Source of the DNA: Verrucomicrobiota bacterium
GTDB lineage: Bacteria; Verrucomicrobiota; Verrucomicrobiia; Chthoniobacterales; Terrimicrobiaceae
Assembly (NCBI GenBank): GCA_009886045.1
Contig: VFJO01000286.1
Location: 1 to 32,216 of the forward strand
DNA: 32,216 nucleotides
Reading direction: 5' to 3'
Below are positions 6,243-17,766 of this stretch, piece after piece. Position 1 is the stretch's first letter, and the number at the start of each line of letters is the position of its first letter. A program made the position numbers and the translations under genes. Under the pieces are notes generated by a model that made no database searches, was not told where the DNA came from, and saw only the letters and a program-made list of their open reading frames with translations.

Positions 6243-8240
6243 TCAGTGGATTTCAACGGGGCATTTCGGCATGGCTTTTAGAAAAGCGCGTCCGTATGGC
6301 TTGGAAACGATCCGACTGTCGAGAATGACGATCGTGCCCGTGTCGGTCTTGCTTCGGATGAGACGGCCAACCCCTTGGCGGAGTTTGAGAATCGCCTCGG
6401 GCAGGGAGTAATTTTCAAAGGCCCGTCCACCTTCGGCTTCGATCGCCTCGAGGCGGGCTTCGGTGAGCGGGTGGTCGGGTGTGGCAAAGGGTAGGCGGGT
6501 GATGATTACACTCGAAAGGGCCTCGCCGGGCACATCGACGCCGGTCCAGAAACTGGAAACGCCAAAGAGGATGCTGTGCGAATTTTCCTTAAACTCGGCT
6601 ATCATTCGCTGCGGCGGCATTCCTCCCCCTTGGACGAGAAGCTGCCAGCCTTTTTTTTCAAAATGCGGCTCGACCAGTTCTGCAACCACTCGCATCGTCT
6701 GGTAACTCGTAAACAGCACAAACGCGCGGGCCTCGCTTTTTTCCGTGAAGTGAGCGATCCACTTGGCGAGAGCCGGCTCGTAGTCAGGCGCCTTGGGTTC
6801 GGGCATTTTCTCGACGAGATGCAGGCTCATTTGCTTCTCGTAGTCGAAAGGACTGCCAATCTGGAGGGCGGGAACGGCTTCTGCCCCCACACGATTTCGG
6901 AAGTACGATAAATCTGGGGCACCAGTGGAGAGTGTCGCACTGGTGAGCACAGTGCAGGCCCCTTCTCGGAAGATTAGCCTGCGGAAGGCCTCTGCGAGAT
7001 TGACCGGCGCGGTACGCAGCGTGCAGAACTCCTCGGTACGCCCGTATTGCTCCACCCAGTAAACGTGGTCGGGTTCCTCAAGTGCAAGAAAGTCGGTGAT
7101 CGCCGACCGTGCCGAGCGGAGCTTGCGGGCGGCCTCTTGGAGCTCAGAAATGTGAGTTTCATTCTCGCATTTTCCAGCCTCAAGGCCTAGGAGTTCGCCA
7201 AGGCGGGCGAGCGCTCCACAGACCGCCCCACCTTCAGCCAATCCTGCTTCTCGAACGCGAAATTCCCTCCCTTTTTTGAATGTGCAATGTTTGGAAACCT
7301 GTTGGAAAAAATCATCAGCCACTGGCAGGACATCGCTCACTGCCCGGCAGGCGGGCCCGTTTTTGAGCATCTGGAAGAGTCCTTTTTTACTACGAGGATT
7401 GTAAAGGCGCTGGATGACGCGGCGCAGACCAAGCTGCGAAACCTCCATGCCAATATGGCGTGCAGCGACTTCCTCGAGCGTATGCGCCTCGTCAAAAATC
7501 ACAAAATCGTTTGCGAAGAGAAGTCCACCGGTGCGGTTTTCGGCATCTTCCACGCCATTGAGAAGAGTGAAAAAAAGCGCATGGTTGAGGACAACCATTC
7601 TGGCATTCGCCACGCGACGGCGAAGATTTTGATAAAAGCACCCGCTGCCTGCACCGCAGGTCTTCGGGGTGCAGAGGTGCTGCTCGCTGCGAACCTCTTC
7701 CCACACAGCAGAGTCCGGCTGCTCCAGAAAATCGCTCAGCGAGCCATCCTTCGTTTCCAGGCTCCACTCGCGAATACGCTCCAGCTCGGCATGTTGCGGT
7801 GTGGTGAATAATTCCTTCGACTGCGTTAGGGCCCGAGCCAAGCGCGTCGTGCAAAGGTAATTTTGCCGCCCTTTCAAGAGCACCGCCTCAAACTCATCGG
7901 GGACGATTTTTTGCACGAGCGGGATGTCTTTGAACATGAGCTGCTCCTGAAGAGCGATCGTGTGGGTGCAGACCACCGCTTTGCGCTTAGTTCTCACTGC
8001 GTGGAGTACTGCGGGCACGAGATAGGCAAGAGATTTTCCGACACCTGTACCCGCCTCGATCACCATGTGTCCACCAGTCTCGATCGTCCGGGCCACGGCT
8101 CCAGCCATGCGTTGCTGCTCGGCACGATATTCGAAAGACGAAGCCCCTGAGAGGATGCCCGTCTCCGAAAAAATGCCCTCTACCTCGCGCTGAAACGGCG
8201 ACGGTGCGCCCGCGTCAAAGTCCTCACGGATCGAAATCAT
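6243..8240 (-). CDS. dinG: ATP-dependent DNA helicase, DinG/XPD family
   Basis: This is a 665-residue superfamily 2 iron-sulfur helicase. Walker A is AGTGVGKS (63-70), and the DEAH box (FDEAH, 249-253) follows. Between them sit four cysteines, at 130, 190, 195 and 201 (HLCTPKTCGAGSGCF), that would hold the 4Fe-4S cluster. C-terminal motifs include VLTSATLS, VSSFWTGVDVPG and LRQGVGRLIRS. The family unwinds DNA 5' to 3' and acts on R-loops, D-loops and damaged DNA. There is no N-terminal exonuclease domain like that of Firmicutes DinG, and the length is in the DinG/YoaA range. No clear Shine-Dalgarno precedes the ATG. Confidence 0.93.
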   Translation of the reverse strand: MISIREDFDAGAPSPFQREVEGIFSETGILSGASSFEYRAEQQRMAGAVARTIETGGHMVIEAGTGVGKSLAYLVPAVLHAVRTKRKAVVCTHTIALQEQLMFKDIPLVQKIVPDEFEAVLLKGRQNYLCTTRLARALTQSKELFTTPQHAELERIREWSLETKDGSLSDFLEQPDSAVWEEVRSEQHLCTPKTCGAGSGCFYQNLRRRVANARMVVLNHALFFTLLNGVEDAENRTGGLLFANDFVIFDEAHTLEEVAARHIGMEVSQLGLRRVIQRLYNPRSKKGLFQMLKNGPACRAVSDVLPVADDFFQQVSKHCTFKKGREFRVREAGLAEGGAVCGALARLGELLGLEAGKCENETHISELQEAARKLRSARSAITDFLALEEPDHVYWVEQYGRTEEFCTLRTAPVNLAEAFRRLIFREGACTVLTSATLSTGAPDLSYFRNRVGAEAVPALQIGSPFDYEKQMSLHLVEKMPEPKAPDYEPALAKWIAHFTEKSEARAFVLFTSYQTMRVVAELVEPHFEKKGWQLLVQGGGMPPQRMIAEFKENSHSILFGVSSFWTGVDVPGEALSSVIITRLPFATPDHPLTEARLEAIEAEGGRAFENYSLPEAILKLRQGVGRLIRSKTDTGTIVILDSRIVSKPYGRAFLKAMPKCPVEIH

Positions 8241-8308: not shown

Positions 8309-10912
8309 CTACTTTCCTCTTGATCGAGTTGTAATTGCTGGTGGCGGCAAATCTTGTGGTAAGCCGAGTGGTTCGACGGCTTCCGCTTCCTCATCCTGTT
8401 GAAGAAGGGGTTGCCCTTCCGCATCCATAAGACGCGCCGTTACGAAAACAATGAGGTTTTTTTTGATCTTCTGGTCTACATTTGATCGGAACAAGCGACC
8501 TGCAAGTGGGATATCTCCGAGAATAGGCACCTTGTCATTGACCTTCTGCACATCCTCACGAATCAGACCTCCAAGAGCGACAGTTTGCCCATCCCAAATG
8601 CTCACACTCGTCGTGACTTTGCGCACGGAGAAGATGGGTTGATTCATGACGTTTGGCGTGATGACAAAAGTTGAAACGCCTGACGGGTTCCCGGCTAGAA
8701 TTGACGCAGGGTCGTAACGTGGACCAATGACGGGCGATCCATAGTTTACAAATCCATCAAACTCAACCACCTCGGGAGATAGAGTGAGATCAATAGTGTA
8801 GTTGTCCGCACCCACCTGAGGTTCAACCTCCAAGCTCACCCCGAGATCTCGCTTTTCGAATGCCGTTGGTGTAGATGGCGTTATCAATCCATTTGTTACA
8901 AAGAGCCCAGCTTCGGGCAGGGTATTTGTTGAAGACGATCCAGTTGTGGGTGGCGGAACCTGCGGCGGGTCAAACTCAGTCGGATAGGGAAATTCACGAA
9001 TGACCTTGATCGTTGCCTTGTTACCACTTTTTGTAGTGACCTTAGGGGCGGACATGAGATCAACGCCCTTTTGCTGACTGAGGGCGCGGATGACCATTTG
9101 GAATTGTGGGTTCGTAAATACGCCAGCGAGGCCAAAAATGCCAGGCGAGGCCACGTTTGTTCCTTGAGGAAGGCCAGCGAGGAGGGCATTTAAGCTATTT
9201 GCTGTAATGGCTGAATTATAACTGGTTCCGATTCCATTACGATTCCCTGCTGTCACAGGATTGCTGCCAACGGAGCCAAAGGGGTAGTTGGAGTAGTATT
9301 CCGAAGAAAGCGCTTGGCCACCGGTGCGAGTTCCTCCGTCCCCATACACTCCGCCACCGATGGAAAAAGGTCCTAGAAGCCAGTCGAATCCCAACTCATT
9401 GACGTTGTTCTGCGAAATTTCTACAAATTTGGATTCAATTTCCACTTGGGTCGGAGCTACACCAGTGGCACCTTCGACAATCGTATCAATCAAATCCACC
9501 GCAGCTTGAGTGTTTCTCACGATGAGCTTACTCCCAGATGCCACGTACTGGGCAAAGGCTCCAGCAGGAAATGGCACACCCTGCTGGGTAAAGTATTCCG
9601 TTGCGTTGCGACGCCCAGTGATGCGGTTATTGAGGTCACCTGATGGCTGATTTCCCGCTGATGGCAGCGCAGCAGCGCTTTCTCCGGTGGATGCAGGAAT
9701 GAAGCCTGGAGGCACGCGGTATTCTTTGGTTACAAGATCTTCTGTATTTTCGGTAAGAGGGAGGAGGGAGACGGCAAACGGCTCGATTTTATATTTCAGC
9801 CCCGCGAGTTCTGTCAGGTAGCGCACGGCTTCAATGAGTGGCACATTTTTTAAAGAGATGGATATTTTTGTGTCTTCCGTGACCCCAGGCGTGGCGGCTA
9901 CTTCCTGTACTTCTGTTGTTGTGGATGGAGTGGGGGCCGAACTCTGTGAGGCAAGTTTGAGAACGATATTCACGCCCTTTTTCTTTGGATCATCCGTACT
10001 GGTGTCGAGTTGGCGGCTTTTTTGCTTGAGAATATCCACCACTTCACGAATCGAGGCATCTTCGAGATCAATGCGGTCGAGAATGATTTTATTCAGCTTG
10101 TTATTGATGGCATCCTTCGAGTTGGCAGATGCGTTTCCGAAAGAGGACCCCTGCGTATCGCGGACGCTTGTGGTAAATTTACGAACTGGCCTTTCCCATG
10201 AACGGTCTGCAAGCCAGAGCATCCGGCTACGGGTTTCGTTGTAGGCACTATCATAGTACGATTTCCTTTGCTTATTAACTTTCTCCATGCCATTTCTGGC
10301 AGCAATATTGTAAGGATCGATGTTAAGAACCTGCTCGTAACGCCTTATCGCCAAATCATTACGACCAGTGGCATAGTATCCCTCGGCTTGATTGAGGAGT
10401 TTCGTTACTTCTTCGCGGTTCGAAGCAGACTTCGGCGTTACTGTGCGATTGTAGTAACCCGGCTGCTCGAGATTAGCCAGCAGTTGCATGGCGGGCTTGA
10501 ATGTGGGATTTAATTCTCTGGAAAGGATTGTTTTAGCCACATTTTCAGCATCTTGGTAGCGACCATTACTGATTAACCAATTGGCATAGTCTAGACCTGT
10601 CTTGCTAAAGTCGGATATCAGACTGGCCACTTTCTTGTTCGACGAAGCCCCTGCCCGTGAGAGCTGTATGGCTTGCAGGTAGCTCGAATAAGCGCCCTCG
10701 AGATTTTTGTCCGCGAGATCTCTGCGGGCTTGGGCGACAAGTTGATCCGCCATTTGAGATTCTTCTTGACGCTTCAAGATTTCTCGTTCGGAGATGGCTA
10801 CTAAATCTGTTTGCGCCTGAATCGGAGCTAGATGCAATGCAAAACCCAAAATAATTGGGAAGGTGGAAAGCGCTTTACGATACAAATGGCTTATTTGAAA
10901 TGAAAAAGTCAT
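8309..10912 (-). CDS. Secretin-family outer-membrane protein, Amuc_1098-like (paralogue 2)
   Basis: This 867-residue protein is predicted to form an outer-membrane channel. It has an N-terminal signal peptide (about 1-33, ending IQA/Q), then TPR-like helical repeats (about 55-215, including AEGYYATGRNDLAIRRYEQVLNID split over 176-199). An STN/AMIN-like domain lies near 270-385, with an N-domain near 435-500. The secretin core follows, with SAPKVTTKSG and DGQTVALGGLIRE, and the signature KVPILGDIPLAGRLFR near the end. It lies 10 nt after a full-length paralogue with the same domain order, so the pair arose by tandem duplication. It is the last gene of the operon. No PilQ-type AMIN repeats or lipobox are visible. 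No Shine-Dalgarno is seen. Confidence 0.9.
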   Translation of the reverse strand: MTFSFQISHLYRKALSTFPIILGFALHLAPIQAQTDLVAISEREILKRQEESQMADQLVAQARRDLADKNLEGAYSSYLQAIQLSRAGASSNKKVASLISDFSKTGLDYANWLISNGRYQDAENVAKTILSRELNPTFKPAMQLLANLEQPGYYNRTVTPKSASNREEVTKLLNQAEGYYATGRNDLAIRRYEQVLNIDPYNIAARNGMEKVNKQRKSYYDSAYNETRSRMLWLADRSWERPVRKFTTSVRDTQGSSFGNASANSKDAINNKLNKIILDRIDLEDASIREVVDILKQKSRQLDTSTDDPKKKGVNIVLKLASQSSAPTPSTTTEVQEVAATPGVTEDTKISISLKNVPLIEAVRYLTELAGLKYKIEPFAVSLLPLTENTEDLVTKEYRVPPGFIPASTGESAAALPSAGNQPSGDLNNRITGRRNATEYFTQQGVPFPAGAFAQYVASGSKLIVRNTQAAVDLIDTIVEGATGVAPTQVEIESKFVEISQNNVNELGFDWLLGPFSIGGGVYGDGGTRTGGQALSSEYYSNYPFGSVGSNPVTAGNRNGIGTSYNSAITANSLNALLAGLPQGTNVASPGIFGLAGVFTNPQFQMVIRALSQQKGVDLMSAPKVTTKSGNKATIKVIREFPYPTEFDPPQVPPPTTGSSSTNTLPEAGLFVTNGLITPSTPTAFEKRDLGVSLEVEPQVGADNYTIDLTLSPEVVEFDGFVNYGSPVIGPRYDPASILAGNPSGVSTFVITPNVMNQPIFSVRKVTTSVSIWDGQTVALGGLIREDVQKVNDKVPILGDIPLAGRLFRSNVDQKIKKNLIVFVTARLMDAEGQPLLQQDEEAEAVEPLGLPQDLPPPAITTRSRGK

Positions 10913-10922
10913 TAGTTAGTGA

Positions 10923-13418
10923 TTATTGGGGTAGTGGAGCGGTGAGAATATCTCCGGGGATGACATCACTCAGCATGGCATTGACGTCAACCTCTGGGAG
11001 AAGTTGGTCATCTTCATCCGCCTCGATGATTGGTTGCCCAGCTGGGTCAAGTAACCCGGCTGTTACAAACATGAGAAGATTGCGTTTGATATGTTGCTCC
11101 GCATTGGTCCTGAAGAGCCTTCCTACTAGTGGGATATCCCCTAGGACAGGAACTTTATCCTGAACTTTTTGCACATCCTCCCGCATGAGACCACCCATGA
11201 CCACGGTTTGTCCATCGTAAACAGATACTTGGGTTTCCACTTCGCGCACGGAAAAGACGGGTTGGTTGATTGTGTTGGCTGTGGCTTCAAAAGTCTGCGA
11301 GGGAAGTACAATATCAGGGCCGGCTACAAAAATGGTTAAGCTGTCGAAAGATTGTTGGACCGTTGCGTTGATTGGGCTGCCATAATTGATAAACCCATCA
11401 AATTCAACAACGCGTGGAGCTAGACGGAGCTCAATCGTGTAGGAATCCGACCCGACCGTGGGTTCAACCTCAAGCGTGATACCAGTATTTTTCGTCTCCC
11501 ATGCGCTTGGCGAATTCGGCACAACAGGAGCGAATGTCGACCCTTGGCTTGCTGAAAGTTGTGGCGGAGTGAACTCAGTTGGATAACGAAATTCTCGAAT
11601 GATTTCAATTTTTGCAGTACTTCCGCTTTTTGTTGTAACCTTCGGAGCGCTAACTAGGTCAATCCCCTTCTTTTGATTCAAGGCTCGGAGGACGACTTGG
11701 AATTGGGGGTTTGTGAATACTCCCGCAATGCTGAGTGCGCCGGCTGCGGGGCCGACCGGGGAGCCAAGGAGCACAGCGTCCAAGGCGCTCAGACTAATTC
11801 CTGTCGTTCCGCCACGGTTGCCTGCGGTCATCGGACCTGATGTACTCGAGGTGGCTCCGACTGGAAGGCCAGTCGCTGGGTTGATCTGAGGGTACCCACT
11901 ATTATCGATCGTTCGGCCGAGGCCAATCGTACCGCCGCCGCCATAAACGCCTGATCCGCCAGCAAGGGCGAACTGACCGAGAAGCCATTCGAAGCCAAGT
12001 TCGTTGAGGTTATTTTGGGTAACTTCCAGGAATTTGGCCTCAATTTCCACCTGTGTTGGCTTAGTGGCTGTAGAGGTATCCACGAGCACATCGACGAGGT
12101 CAAGGTTGGCTTGGGTATTTTTGACGATGAGACGACTGGTGAGAGAAATATAATTCGCACTCGCGCCTGCTGGGAATTCGACGCCTTGAGTTAGCAAAAA
12201 ATCCTTCGCCATGGATTTCGCTGCGATCACGGATTGCGAGCCTGCCGCGAGGCCGCTGATAGGCACAGGAGCGCTCCCGGGCACTGCTTGAATAAAGCTT
12301 GGCGGCACTTTATATTCTTTAGTGATCAGGATATCCGTATTCTCAGTAGCCGGCACGACGACGACCGCGTGGGTTTCGATTTTGATTTTAAGATTAGCAG
12401 CCTCTGTCACATAGCGGAGAGCCTCTCTCAAAGGAACATCCGAAAGCGAAAGCGTGATCGGGTAAGCCGCGTCGGCTGAATCAGCAGGCAACTTGAGTAC
12501 GATATTGATGCCTTTGTTGTCCGAATCGCCCTCATCAAGATCAGCAGCGCGCTTTTTAATGAAATCAAGCGCCTCCTTGATCGAAGAGTCGGTGAAATCG
12601 ATGCGGGGAATGATGATCTCGTCAAGCTTGTTGTTGATGGCTTGGCTACCGCGCGCATCCATTTCCGGTTGCTCGACGATGGAGGTCGGGCCGTCGGAGA
12701 ATTTTTTGACCGGAAGCTCCCAAGCCTTGTCTACTTCCACGAGCATGGCACCGCGTGTTTCATTGTAGGCGGCGTCAGCATACTGCTGGCGCGCGAGGTT
12801 AATTTTCTCCATCAGTCGGCGAGCGGCGATGTTGTATTTATCAATATTCAAGGCCTGCTCGCAGCGCTTGAATGCGATATCGTAGCGTCCGGTGGCGTAG
12901 TAGCCATCGCCTTCTTGGATGAGGCGTTTCACCTCCTCGATGTTGGCAGCGTGGCGCGGAGTCAAGGTGCCACGGTCGGCAAAGCCTTGGGGATCGATGA
13001 GCTGGGAGCGCAGTTTTTTGGCTGGAGCGTAATCTGGGTCGTAGCTGTTTTCTAGGACGACTTCTACTGTCGTGCGAGCATCGGCATAGCGCCCCTCGGA
13101 TACTCGCTGCTGGGCCAGCAGGACTCCCGCGTTGCAGAATCCGCTCAGGGCCTGTTTGCGAATATCAGAAGAGGCTTGGCCGCCTTGGGGAATCGTATCT
13201 ACGGCACTTTTAAAGAGGGCATAGGCCGATTCATAGTCTTTGTCATTGAGCGCACGGTTGCCCTTTTGCACCAAGTCAGCACAGTAGTTGACTTTCTGCT
13301 CAAGCACTTGAATATGAGACTCCACACTCCCCTGAACGCCCGGGTATTGAGCGTAAACGGAGGCGGTGATGTGGCCAACGATGAAAAAAGCGGCAAACCG
13401 GAGTAAATGTTTATTCAT
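10923..13418 (-). CDS. Secretin-family outer-membrane protein, Amuc_1098-like (paralogue 1)
   Basis: An 831-residue protein with a signal peptide (1-23, SVYA/Q), a TPR-like region (about 45-215, including GDGYYATGRYDIAFKRCEQA), an STN-like domain (about 263-360), an N-domain (about 405-465) and the secretin core (about 570-790). Core landmarks are SAPKVTTKSGS, YDGQTVVMGGLMRE and KVPVLGDIPLVGRLF (755-769). A Gly/Asn/Ser-rich variable segment (about 485-560) separates the N-domain from the barrel-forming core. In Akkermansia the equivalent single gene is Amuc_1098. It starts 6 nt after the Amuc_1099-like gene. The two paralogues could form a mixed ring or two separate channels; the sequence does not say which. 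Confidence 0.92.
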   Translation of the reverse strand: MNKHLLRFAAFFIVGHITASVYAQYPGVQGSVESHIQVLEQKVNYCADLVQKGNRALNDKDYESAYALFKSAVDTIPQGGQASSDIRKQALSGFCNAGVLLAQQRVSEGRYADARTTVEVVLENSYDPDYAPAKKLRSQLIDPQGFADRGTLTPRHAANIEEVKRLIQEGDGYYATGRYDIAFKRCEQALNIDKYNIAARRLMEKINLARQQYADAAYNETRGAMLVEVDKAWELPVKKFSDGPTSIVEQPEMDARGSQAINNKLDEIIIPRIDFTDSSIKEALDFIKKRAADLDEGDSDNKGINIVLKLPADSADAAYPITLSLSDVPLREALRYVTEAANLKIKIETHAVVVVPATENTDILITKEYKVPPSFIQAVPGSAPVPISGLAAGSQSVIAAKSMAKDFLLTQGVEFPAGASANYISLTSRLIVKNTQANLDLVDVLVDTSTATKPTQVEIEAKFLEVTQNNLNELGFEWLLGQFALAGGSGVYGGGGTIGLGRTIDNSGYPQINPATGLPVGATSSTSGPMTAGNRGGTTGISLSALDAVLLGSPVGPAAGALSIAGVFTNPQFQVVLRALNQKKGIDLVSAPKVTTKSGSTAKIEIIREFRYPTEFTPPQLSASQGSTFAPVVPNSPSAWETKNTGITLEVEPTVGSDSYTIELRLAPRVVEFDGFINYGSPINATVQQSFDSLTIFVAGPDIVLPSQTFEATANTINQPVFSVREVETQVSVYDGQTVVMGGLMREDVQKVQDKVPVLGDIPLVGRLFRTNAEQHIKRNLLMFVTAGLLDPAGQPIIEADEDDQLLPEVDVNAMLSDVIPGDILTAPLPQ

Positions 13419-13424
13419 TGCAGG

Positions 13425-14414
13425 TTATGGAGATATCTTGTCAATCGAAAGGACGTAAAAAATTTCACCCGTGGACGTATCGCGAATTTGAGCTCTCGAG
13501 GTTGTGATATCAATCAATTTTAGTTTGCGAGATGTGTCCGGCTTGATAGAAAATTCTTCGCCTTTCTTGAGGGTGAAATCGGCGTCTTCGGGAGCGAGAA
13601 GGTTTCGGAATGCGCCGAAGGAGGTCGGATCGTTGGCTTCTTTATTGAAAACTAAAACAATCGAGTCGCCGGTTTCAGTATTTTGTATAGTGAGTTCAGA
13701 AAGATTCACGATGACATTGCGCGCATTGGGGCCTTCTTTAGCTTCATACTTAAGAATTTTGTAGGGAGCTCCTTCGACCTGATCTCCCAGTTTGCGGTAT
13801 TGGCTGCGGGCGCTGCCTTTTAAGTCTTTCAGATTGATTTGGAATTCTTTACCATCACCGGACGCATCACCTTTGAACTCCAGACGGAACGGGATAGGAT
13901 TATAAGAAACGAGTTTGAGCTTATTTAAGGAAGGCGGTGCATCCTTGGGGTCGATGGGGTTGGTTTTTTTATCAAACTCCTCTAGATTGGAGAATCCATC
14001 GCCGTCTGCGTCCTTTTCTTTAATGTTGATATCGGTGTAATCGAGTCCGTTAACAAGCAGCCAGTCGTTGGTGATCGGGGGGTGGAGTTGATCGCTTCCT
14101 TCTGCGAGGGGATCGATGAGCTTTCCGTCCTTAAGAAGGTAGCGCCTGGAGACGAGTAATGAGCCTCGCTCAGGGGTGCCAACGGACAGATCAGCCTGGG
14201 ACTTCCATTTGAGCGGAGACTCTGCAAGAGCAGACGCTTGGCGAATGGCATTAAGATCCAAGGCGGTAACAGAGTTGTCCTTTGGAGCGGCGACTTTAAA
14301 TTCCGTTTCAGTGGGTTGAATCCGGTTCATCACCATCCATCCCGCGTTAGACGTAAGGAGAAGGGTGGCAATGGCCAGAAGAACGATGTCGTATTTTTGT
14401 TTGACCCAATTCAT
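13425..14414 (-). CDS. Amuc_1099-like pilus-system protein with a calcium-binding-type motif
   Basis: This 329-residue protein has one N-terminal transmembrane helix (about 9-29) and a long periplasmic part. A DADGDGFSNLEEF stretch (135-147) matches the DxDxDGxxxxxE calcium-binding loop found in thrombospondin type 3 and dockerin-like repeats; it is followed by KKTNPIDPKD, typical of such repeats in Verrucomicrobiota. The C-terminal half is beta-rich, with no family I can name beyond the Amuc_1099 resemblance. Position between the Amuc_1100-like gene (5 nt away) and the secretins (6 nt) matches the Akkermansia order. A role linking the inner-membrane complex to the secretin is inference, by analogy with PilP-like connectors. 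Confidence 0.8.
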   Translation of the reverse strand: MNWVKQKYDIVLLAIATLLLTSNAGWMVMNRIQPTETEFKVAAPKDNSVTALDLNAIRQASALAESPLKWKSQADLSVGTPERGSLLVSRRYLLKDGKLIDPLAEGSDQLHPPITNDWLLVNGLDYTDINIKEKDADGDGFSNLEEFDKKTNPIDPKDAPPSLNKLKLVSYNPIPFRLEFKGDASGDGKEFQINLKDLKGSARSQYRKLGDQVEGAPYKILKYEAKEGPNARNVIVNLSELTIQNTETGDSIVLVFNKEANDPTSFGAFRNLLAPEDADFTLKKGEEFSIKPDTSRKLKLIDITTSRAQIRDTSTGEIFYVLSIDKISP

Positions 14415-14419
14415 GGTAT

Positions 14420-15364
14420 CTACTTGGGTGAGGGAGTGGTTGACGACTTGGCGGGGGTGGCACTCTCGGAGTCTGGGAAGTTGAGGATTTCGACCTCAAG
14501 AGTGGTGGTGACAGATTCGCGCCCGAGAATGGCTTGAATGGTTTCGGCAGAAGGGGCCGTAGCTCTCGGCAAAGAAGCGCCACTTATCAATGCGGATGGG
14601 TCACCAGCCTGCGTCTTGAGGGGCGGATTGGGACTTGTATTATCAATTAGGAGCGAACGGATAAAAAGAAAATCATTGGTATCTTGGATTAGGTTGAAGG
14701 CGGTAAGGAATTTTTCTTGAGGGGCGGTAAAAGTGATGATGAAGGTTTTGGAAGAAATGGCGGGTGGTTTTGATGGCTCGGTGGCTCCGCTCGGTTTGGG
14801 GGGCTGCCCGGCGGGCATCGGCGAGGTCTTTTTTTCTGTTTCTTTACGAACGAGCGAGCCGATGGAATCAATTTTGAGATCAACAAGGCTGTCGGTGAGT
14901 CTCTGGATGACACGAAATTCGCGGTTTAGCTCTGGAACTTCTTGTTGCGAAGGCGGGGTCGATTGGTATTGATCTAAGCCGTAGAAGAAATTATCAGGAA
15001 GAAGTACCACTTTTTCTATTGCTTTTTTACGCAAATCATCCGCAGCTTTGCGCAGCTCGTCTTGAAACTCTTGGGGGTTGATGCTGACGAGTGGTTCCTC
15101 CATGGCAGCGAGTGCCGCTCGATATTTGCCAATTTCGGCTTTGTACTCATCCAAGCTGGCTTTTACCTCTTTCAGACTCTGATCGGTTGGAAAAGGCTTT
15201 TGATTTTGAAACTGTTTGAGTTTCTGCAGTTGAGCGTCCAAGTTGGCCTGCGCCTCATTGCGGCGGGAGGAAGCATCGAAAGCCAAATAAGAAGTGGCCC
15301 CCACTCCAAGAATGGTCAAGGCGAGGAGCACTGAGGCTATTGGGTTCTGCTTAAACCAGTTCAT
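14420..15364 (-). CDS. Amuc_1100-like pilus-system membrane protein
   Basis: The 314-residue protein has one N-terminal transmembrane helix (about 9-28), a coiled coil (about 32-90), and a C-terminal alpha/beta part (SKTFIITFTAPQEKFLTAFN) interrupted by a Pro-rich stretch near 193-215. Size and topology match Amuc_1100 of Akkermansia (about 317 residues), a protein known for its effect on host Toll-like receptor 2 signalling. The layout of helix, coiled coil and ferredoxin-like domain also resembles PilO of type IV pilus alignment complexes, and it directly follows the PilM-PilN gene (ATGA overlap), where PilO would be expected. Homology to Amuc_1100 is supported by architecture and gene order; I could not run an alignment. 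Confidence 0.82.
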   Translation of the reverse strand: MNWFKQNPIASVLLALTILGVGATSYLAFDASSRRNEAQANLDAQLQKLKQFQNQKPFPTDQSLKEVKASLDEYKAEIGKYRAALAAMEEPLVSINPQEFQDELRKAADDLRKKAIEKVVLLPDNFFYGLDQYQSTPPSQQEVPELNREFRVIQRLTDSLVDLKIDSIGSLVRKETEKKTSPMPAGQPPKPSGATEPSKPPAISSKTFIITFTAPQEKFLTAFNLIQDTNDFLFIRSLLIDNTSPNPPLKTQAGDPSALISGASLPRATAPSAETIQAILGRESVTTTLEVEILNFPDSESATPAKSSTTPSPK

Positions 15365-17103
15365 GGGAGGAGGAGAGGCTTTGCGAGAGGCAACACCAAG
15401 GTGTAGCCGTAGGCCCAGGCCTCACCTGTGGGCGTGGTCCGGCGGGTGATGATTTTTGAGGAATCCTCACCGATGGAAAAAACGGTGGATGGTTTCAGAT
15501 TGTTAAAGAATTTGTCAATGACTCCAGCGCCTTCAGCATTAGGCGGATTGTCGAGGTAGAGGCCGTTGATTTCAATAGCCGTGATGGCTTTCGGGCCTGA
15601 AGGAGGAGCGGGGGGCTTGGGCGGGGCTTTGGCGCCTGGAGCGAGTTTGGGCTCTGGCTGGAGAACGACTCCTTCAACCGGCTTGATCTGCGTGACCCAG
15701 ATAAAGCGCTGAGGAATGGTGGAGGCTAATTCATCAAGAATCGTTGCCCAGAGGGACTTTTCCGTGGCAATGGAAAGAAACGGGGCCGCCTCGGCGACGA
15801 GTTTGTCACGATCTGCAAGGGCGGCAGAGATGGCTTTTGAGAGAGTTTCCAAGCGAGTTACCTCAGCAGTCTGCCTCTCAACTTTCTCACTAATGCGGAG
15901 GGCAGATTCGTCAAGGTCCAGCCAACAAAGAGCTGGAGTGAGGATCAAAAAGAGCGAGGCAACAGCAAGGGCTGGGAGGCGCTTTGCAAAGAGTTGAGCC
16001 TGACGAACGCTGGGGGGGGTGAGGTTAATCTCGACCGGACAATCCTTAATGGATCGAAGGGCGCAGCCGACTAATTCTGGAAGGCCAGACGCACAATGCG
16101 AGAGACCCTGCGGGAGCGCGTCTGGAGCAACCTGCACATTGCGCAGCGGATTGAAAAACTCGACGGGCGCTTGGAGTTTCTCGGCAAAAAATTCGGTCAT
16201 GTAGGACAAGCCCGTACCTCCGCCGCAAATCAGAATCCGCATGGGAGTAGTGCCTCCGTGGGTGGTGCGATAGAAGTTGATCGAGCGAGCGATTTCCGCG
16301 TGGAGGCGGGTCATCGTATTGCGAGTGACCTTGGCGAGGCGGGCTTCAGTCGGGTCCTCAGACTCGGCATAAGCGCCACCGAGTCCGACGCTGCCTTTTT
16401 CGATCTTCAGCTTTTCGGCGAGGGTGATTTCTTGGGCAAATTCCTTGGCGATTGCTGCGCTGATTGAACTTCCACCGATTGGGATGCTCCGGCTGAAAAA
16501 ACGGTTCTCCTCGACAAAGACAAGATTTGTAGTGCGGGCCCCTAAGTCCAGAAGAAGAGCACATCCTTTGACATCGGAGTAATTATATCGGAATGAGTTA
16601 AGCAGGGCCGTAGGCGAGAAATCGATTTTCCCCGACGCAATACCCCCTTTGCCCAGAGCCAAGACAAATTCGTTTAACTGGTCGGCTTTAATTGCCACGA
16701 TCGAGACGTCCCAAGCTTCGCCTCGGCGATCACCCATGATCTGGTAATCCCAGACAACTTCATCAATCGGAAATGGCACGTTTTGCTGAGCCTCGAATCC
16801 GATGATTGACTCAACGTCCTGAGCTGTGGCGCCGGGGAGTTTTACCGATCGGGAAAATACAGCTTGTGAGGGAAGGCAAATATGCGTCACCGCTTTTGCA
16901 GGAGCTTGAAGCGCTGTGCGAAGTTCGGCAGATACCGATTCGATCTGGCTATTGCGAGTGGCGTCGGCCGCGGGATCAACGATGAAATCGGCCGTTGTTA
17001 TTGCTACTAACTTCAAGCCGCCAGCAGGCAATTCTTGAAACTCGGCCATGCTTGCGGTCTGCATGCCGAGATTAAGAGCAAAAATTCGAGCTGGGCGGGC
17101 CAT
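15361..17103 (-). CDS. PilM-like actin-fold ATPase fused to a PilN-like membrane domain (Amuc_1101-like)
   Basis: The 580-residue protein is far longer than ordinary PilM (about 350). Residues 1-352 are the PilM/FtsA-like actin fold, with phosphate-binding motif LLDLGARTTNLVFVE (184-198) and nucleotide motif ILICGGGTGLS (290-300). Then comes VEINLTPPSVR (357-367), which resembles the INLLP peptide at the PilN N-terminus that docks on PilM. A transmembrane helix (about 376-396), a coiled coil (about 400-440) and a PilN-like periplasmic domain with a Pro/Ala-rich insert follow. I read it as a PilM-PilN fusion. PilM normally sits on the cytoplasmic side and passes signals from the motor to PilN/PilO. 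It is 6 nt from the preceding gene and overlaps the next by 4 nt. Confidence 0.9.
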   Translation of the reverse strand: MARPARIFALNLGMQTASMAEFQELPAGGLKLVAITTADFIVDPAADATRNSQIESVSAELRTALQAPAKAVTHICLPSQAVFSRSVKLPGATAQDVESIIGFEAQQNVPFPIDEVVWDYQIMGDRRGEAWDVSIVAIKADQLNEFVLALGKGGIASGKIDFSPTALLNSFRYNYSDVKGCALLLDLGARTTNLVFVEENRFFSRSIPIGGSSISAAIAKEFAQEITLAEKLKIEKGSVGLGGAYAESEDPTEARLAKVTRNTMTRLHAEIARSINFYRTTHGGTTPMRILICGGGTGLSYMTEFFAEKLQAPVEFFNPLRNVQVAPDALPQGLSHCASGLPELVGCALRSIKDCPVEINLTPPSVRQAQLFAKRLPALAVASLFLILTPALCWLDLDESALRISEKVERQTAEVTRLETLSKAISAALADRDKLVAEAAPFLSIATEKSLWATILDELASTIPQRFIWVTQIKPVEGVVLQPEPKLAPGAKAPPKPPAPPSGPKAITAIEINGLYLDNPPNAEGAGVIDKFFNNLKPSTVFSIGEDSSKIITRRTTPTGEAWAYGYTLVLPLAKPLLLP

Positions 17104-17109
17104 TTTAGA

Positions 17110-17766
17110 TTAGTTGGCAGATTTGGATTTGGATGGCAGGTAGTAGTCCCAAGCGAGCGGTGCGAAGGGCGTTTGGCTTTTTTCCAAAATTCGGCCAGGC
17201 ACTTTAGTCATGCCAGATTCAGCTTCCCACCAACCTTTGCCCTGCTTGGCCACATCGAGGTTCTTAAGTGAGGATATCGCCGCCAGGTCGCTTCCCGATG
17301 AAATCGTCACGCCGACATCGATCACAGCTTGTTGGATGTTGATCGGTGCCTTGCCATCAAAATAGCGAGCAAGCGACTGAGGCGCCACAAAGGCCGCCGC
17401 GTGGAGTCCCTTGCCGTAGGGAACATCGGAAATCGTAGTGCTGCCGCTCAGAAGCGTAGGTTTTTTATCCTCCGTAAGAGCCGCATTATTGAGAAGAATG
17501 TAAAAATTTACTACGAGGTCGTCGGTGAATTTGGATGCTTGCTTGGAGACTTCATTACGCTCAAAATTAACGTCTACCTCAAGCCAAGGAACCGGACGAG
17601 CGGCTCCAGACTGCTGTTTCCGATAGGAACCAGCGGAGATTTGTGGAGTGTCAACAAGAGCGGGGTCGATCTTTTTGATTGAAAACTCCGTGTTGACCTG
17701 CGCCTGCGCGGTCGAGGCACAGATGAGAAGGAGGGAAGCTATGGAGGGGAACCAATTTATTTTCAT
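17110..17766 (-). CDS. Secreted Amuc_1102-like pilus-system protein
   Basis: This first gene of the operon encodes 218 residues with a clear signal peptide (1-22, AQA/Q) and no further membrane helix, so a periplasmic or exported protein is expected. The mature part begins with FSIKKIDPALVDTPQISAG and looks beta-rich. It has no lipobox, no prepilin cleavage motif (no G/FTLIE-type segment) and no family I recognise independently. The call rests on its place upstream of the PilM, Amuc_1100, Amuc_1099 and secretin genes, which is where Amuc_1102 sits in Akkermansia. No Shine-Dalgarno precedes the ATG; the upstream bases are an AT-rich run. Confidence 0.72.
   Translation of the reverse strand: MKINWFPSIASLLLICASTAQAQVNTEFSIKKIDPALVDTPQISAGSYRKQQSGAARPVPWLEVDVNFERNEVSKQASKFTDDLVVNFYILLNNAALTEDKKPTLLSGSTTISDVPYGKGLHAAAFVAPQSLARYFDGKAPINIQQAVIDVGVTISSGSDLAAISSLKNLDVAKQGKGWWEAESGMTKVPGRILEKSQTPFAPLAWDYYLPSKSKSAN

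Follow-up and report, generated by a model that had tools for sequence, protein, structure and literature searches.

A MUL2 (Amuc_1098-1102)-type operon with two tandem secretin genes in Chthoniobacterales, encoding a probable type IV pilus trunk

The closest described counterpart of the operon reported here is the Amuc_1098-1102 (MUL2) locus of Akkermansia muciniphila, whose products are represented by the NCBIfam models NF042912, NF042425, NF038287, NF045709 and NF042424. A recent survey (PMC13174399, published in 2026) reported synteny of MUL2 in Akkermansiaceae, including marine and freshwater members, and in other Verrucomicrobiales, found the locus to be less conserved in Chthoniobacterales, and proposed a role in glycan attachment and uptake. 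The occurrence of the locus in environmental Akkermansiaceae and Verrucomicrobiales, and its fit with an origin before host association, are already published for those groups; a tandem secretin is absent from the main text of that survey. The pilMNOPQ modules of type IVa pili, as in Pseudomonas and Myxococcus, likewise consist of PilM, PilN, PilO, PilP and secretin parts, which (PilP with probability only) can be matched to the present operon by profile or predicted fold, and their motors are encoded elsewhere.

The DNA examined here is a stretch of 32,216 nucleotides (the window) from a metagenome-assembled genome of 98.6% completeness in 340 contigs. In a scan of named species, the window was placed among Spartobacteria/Chthoniobacterales, nearest to lake assemblies that include AMD-G4 and UBA5019. 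An initial annotation, made from the letters of the window, had described six closely packed minus-strand genes in the Akkermansia order, and both the coordinates of the open reading frames and the NCBIfam matches bear this out. The six frames are contiguous over positions 8309-17766, with gaps, read from 1102 towards the last secretin gene, of 6, 5, 6 and 10 nt and a 4-nt overlap at the 1101/1100 junction. In operon order, they are:

17110..17766, minus strand: Amuc_1102 (MUL2A) homologue, Sec-type signal peptide and secreted domain (NF042424, 86 bits, cut-off 55)
15361..17103, minus strand: Amuc_1101 (MUL2B) homologue, PilM-PilN fusion (NF045709, E 1e-172, 576 bits, cut-off 650; PilM_2, E 2e-25)
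14420..15364, minus strand: Amuc_1100 homologue, PilO-like (NF038287, 192 bits, cut-off 180)
13425..14414, minus strand: Amuc_1099 homologue, probably PilP-like (NF042425, 189 bits, cut-off 50)
10923..13418, minus strand: secretin S2, Amuc_1098 family, PilQ-like, first of the tandem pair (NF042912, 824 bits, cut-off 750; Secretin, E 5e-34)
8309..10912, minus strand: secretin S1, Amuc_1098 family, PilQ-like, second of the tandem pair (NF042912, 844 bits, cut-off 750; Secretin, E 3e-33)

For each of the six proteins, the matching Amuc model was the best match and covered nearly the full length, and the NCBIfam cut-off was passed by five of them, only 1101 falling short. The profile similarity to Amuc_1098-1102 that had been proposed as a check is significant throughout, and the PilM actin fold and both secretin cores named in the initial annotation, which had not treated the duplication itself as a feature, are likewise present. 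The genes, their order 1102-1101-1100-1099-1098 and their common strand are those of Akkermansia, with homology over nearly the full length, but 1098 is present twice in tandem where the A. muciniphila locus has one copy, and the similarity of the window's 1100 and 1102 to the Akkermansia proteins is distant. Relative to type IVa pilMNOPQ, the operon differs in its fusion of PilM and PilN, in a PilP-like protein with an additional domain and an acidic motif of the TSP3 type, in secretins with TPRs, in the additional gene 1102, and in having two secretins. A scan for promoters and terminators gave nothing above shuffled sequence. The operon is followed in the window by a DinG-type helicase gene (6243-8240), a place taken by coaE and rho in a relative (L055:12977-15099).

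The arrangement recurs widely in the phylum. The 1099 model had matches in 210 of 241 sampled genomes of Verrucomicrobiota (129 over the cut-off) and in none of 14 control genomes; matches below the cut-off, which were often confined to the region of the acidic motif, were excluded as evidence. When 20 loci from other genomes of the phylum were compared, 10 contained all five genes in the same order, most of the others missed a single label (because of a contig end, the way ORFs were picked or a diverged 1102), and the order was the same in loci from distant families, so that chance can be excluded as its cause. Presence of the locus in most sampled genomes, many of them from lakes and soils, fits the earlier suggestion that the machine originated before host association. 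In three loci (L113, L122 and L132), 1102-1101-1100, sometimes with 1099, stand without a detectable adjoining secretin, which may be elsewhere or lost.

The individual proteins can be assigned to parts of a pilMNOPQ module with differing firmness. Residues 1 to about 350 of 1101 have the PilM-type actin fold, with a profile match to PilM 3jc8_Ma, and are followed by a membrane helix and a PilN-like part, of which residues 356-484 match the Myxococcus PilN 3jc8_Na (E 3.5e-6); because the profiles match PilM over the first part and PilN over the second, we read 1101 as a PilM-PilN fusion. It is the only PilM over the cut-off in the genome. The 1100 protein consists of one N-terminal membrane helix, a coiled coil and a ferredoxin-like end, and matches Amuc_1100 6lad with an E value of 2e-12. 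Its predicted model (pLDDT 86) was closest to Amuc_1100 (Z 22) and then to PilO 2rjz (Z 10.5, rmsd 1.8 over 91 residues), above unrelated rows, and, judged by this model, 1100 is PilO-like; Pfam returned nothing for PilO beyond a weak T2SSM_b in 4 of 46 relatives. For 1099, the best fold for the predicted model (pLDDT 86) was PilP 2lc4, with a Z of 8.4 and an rmsd of 2.0 over 67 residues, the next row having a Z of 5.5. Since Foldseek alone gave no match under 1e-3 and the Pfam PilP model matched none of 46 relatives, we take 1099 to be probably, rather than provenly, PilP-like. It also carries a TSP3/EF-hand-like acidic motif, DxDxDG, at residues 135-146, together with an inserted beta domain, and TSP3_bac was found in 21 of the 46 relatives. 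Several more distant relatives (L058-L061 and L064-L066) have a cysteine-rich, zinc-ribbon-like stretch before this motif. The first protein of the operon, 1102, carries a signal peptide of the Sec type but no class III prepilin signal, and no N_methyl match was found on the whole contig; it matched 7dsz in phmmer (E 6.6e-4) and is kept at the operon head in relatives. By profile and predicted fold, then, the operon would supply a pilMNOPQ module, with 1101 as PilM-PilN, 1100 as the PilO-like part, 1099 probably as the PilP-like part and 1098 as the PilQ-like part.

The two secretins, S1 and S2, share 47% identity, and each consists of a TPR region and a secretin core. The adjacent pair is found in 14 named loci besides the window, and other Chthoniobacterales loci have a single secretin. 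In a tree, the S1 and S2 sequences formed two clades of 15 each, both with an SH-aLRT of 100, and a careful build on a reduced set agreed. By whole-genome counts, two adjacent copies occur in the sampled families f1, f62, f65 and f66, in one genome (G273) of f57 and in those members of f3 that have larger genomes; a single copy was counted in f2, f58, f59, f63, f64 and most of f61, and none at the count threshold in f60. Within the window's own family, at least two copies were found in 20 of the 21 genomes with any match, the exception being cut by a contig end. When representatives of f1, f62, f65, f66, f57 and f3 were placed in one tree, every pair split with one copy in each clade, the single-copy families being the exception. 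Because each pair contributes one copy to each clade, a single duplication before the six families is indicated, and the sequence relationships identify S1 and S2 as products of a single tandem duplication that six or more families of the order have retained, their sister families being single-copy. An independent tandem duplication at this place in the operon, of which both copies are likewise kept, was found at L170:12784-17824 and at L057:10510-16368 (G078). In sampled Akkermansia-like genomes, by comparison, a second member of the 1098 family is deeply diverged and lies at a distant locus, dispersed off the operon rather than in tandem, as in L075:9400-11925 (G024). Linkage of a second secretin to pilT, considered as a general rule, was discarded, being seen in only one Akkermansia-type genome (G005 contig 56). 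Our search for tandem or duplicated secretins, or twin PilQ, found nothing relevant in the open-access literature, subscription papers falling mostly outside its scope, and the twin-secretin variant is apparently undescribed so far.

The second secretin might simply be a redundant copy with no distinct role, a reading that concerns the duplication only and is compatible with a pilus function of the operon. Secretin paralogues are common in the phylum, and very few positions that might account for a division of labour are conserved within each clade yet differ between the clades; they lie mainly in the C-tail and, around residue 551 of S1, in a glycine-rich loop. However, both copies keep the conserved positions of the TPRs and the secretin core and are intact and constrained (dN 0.11-0.15, with dS about 2 or saturated), the pair has stayed adjacent in at least six families since one duplication, and the arrangement arose a second time in L170/G078. 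Simple redundancy is, on balance, unlikely.

Evidence on what might drive the machine comes from the remainder of the genome. The initial annotation had listed PilB/PilT, PilC and prepilin genes as lacking, which is correct for the window, where no prepilin, PilB/GspE or PilC gene was found, but does not extend to the genome, since genes of all these types are present on other contigs. Contig 322 encodes two PilB/GspE-type ATPases side by side and contig 251 a PilC/GspF-type protein, both outside the T2SS-like locus; these PilB- and PilC-type proteins score below the NCBIfam cut-offs and are poorly separated from GspE and GspF. Two PilT genes over the cut-off lie on contig 88, the sole prepilin peptidase gene on contig 254, and 21 N_methyl proteins over the cut-off are encoded on contigs other than the window's, several of them in the T2SS-like locus. 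Four secretins were counted in the genome, namely S1, S2, a GspD-like protein in the T2SS-like locus (contig 191), and SctC on contig 3. The SctC, an outer-ring protein of type III secretion, scores 336 bits against a cut-off of 238 (G000 contig 3, L030:1-9000) and has a weak SseD translocon-like neighbour, in what is a freshwater Chthoniobacterales-type genome. As the genome contains no other free secretin and no other PilM over the cut-off, the operon and the type IV pilus motor set left unassigned are each other's candidate partners. Of 66 genomes, 52 had both PilT and an Amuc_1098-type secretin, 6 had PilT but no strong secretin of this type, 2 had the secretin alone and 6 had neither (Fisher p 2e-4, with genome relatedness not corrected for). 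Because the motor genes are unlinked to the operon, the case for a joint function rests on elimination and this co-occurrence.

Alternatively, the operon might be served by a T2SS-like motor and form a second protein-secretion channel. The genome does contain a T2SS-like locus, in which E, F, D and pseudopilin genes are found, and the PilM-PilN fusion is laid out like GspL. That locus, however, already has a secretin, an ATPase and a membrane platform gene of its own, and no function in a T2SS would be expected for the two PilT genes. The GspD model gave 139 bits for S1 and 130 bits for S2, which, at a cut-off of 351, does not identify either as a T2SS secretin. We consider this alternative improbable.

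The missing motors had suggested something else in the initial annotation, namely a machine for secretion or surface display that works without type IV pilus motors. Labelling of Amuc_1100 at the cell surface (PMC5332112) would agree with display, as would a window free of motor and prepilin genes. This suggestion is not borne out, because the motor parts are present: the search for PilB, PilC, PilD and prepilins that had been proposed with it recovered motor parts, peptidase and prepilins, so that the genome is not motorless, and the unassigned PilB/GspE-type, PilC-type and PilT genes have no other free secretin or PilM to serve. Moreover, pilMNOPQ operons normally lack motor genes, and the missing motors in the window are what such a module would lead one to expect. 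The operon proteins themselves resemble PilM, PilN, PilO, PilP and PilQ, and where the locus is missing (G036, G057 and the four f6 genomes), PilT over the cut-off is missing as well. We reject a motorless machine as very improbable. That the adjacent secretins are an artefact of a fragmented assembly, as might be feared with 340 contigs, has a negligible chance of being correct and is refuted by the same pair in many independent assemblies and by the divergence of S1 from S2.

The reading that we prefer, and consider probable, is that the operon belongs to a type IV pilus machine of a kind already known, in a variant, itself conserved, that carries twin secretins. It builds on the observed homology, gene order, genome complement, and duplication and retention of the secretin gene. 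The operon would encode a trans-envelope trunk of the MUL2 kind, composed of PilM-PilN (1101), PilO (1100), a PilP-like protein (1099) and PilQ-type TPR-secretins (1098), with the secreted 1102 at its head. The force for assembling and retracting a filament would most likely come from the PilB/GspE-, PilC- and PilT-type proteins whose genes are on other contigs, and which are presumed to assemble physically with the trunk despite this distance. If A. muciniphila is a guide, the machine most likely functions in attachment to polymeric glycans and in their capture or uptake, a role for which relatives offer precedent (PMC13174399; PMC12418764). The gene for the outer-membrane channel was duplicated in tandem long ago in this lineage, and because both copies retain the whole architecture of a secretin and have a common set of M/N/O/P partners, we infer two types of channel on a single inner-membrane platform, either as alternative homomeric gates or combined in a mixed ring. 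As a tentative extension, many Chthoniobacterales may possess a type IV pilus machine in which one PilMNOP platform is shared by two outer-membrane channels that differ in function, or carries a mixed ring, a design that may have evolved at least twice in Verrucomicrobiota.

These assignments would give part names (PilM-N, PilO, probable PilP and PilQ) to the Amuc_1098-1102 locus, and Amuc_1100, which has been studied as a probiotic factor, would become a structural component resembling PilO in a pilus machine common to free-living relatives. The twin secretin also makes it testable how one inner-membrane alignment complex may serve two outer-membrane channels.
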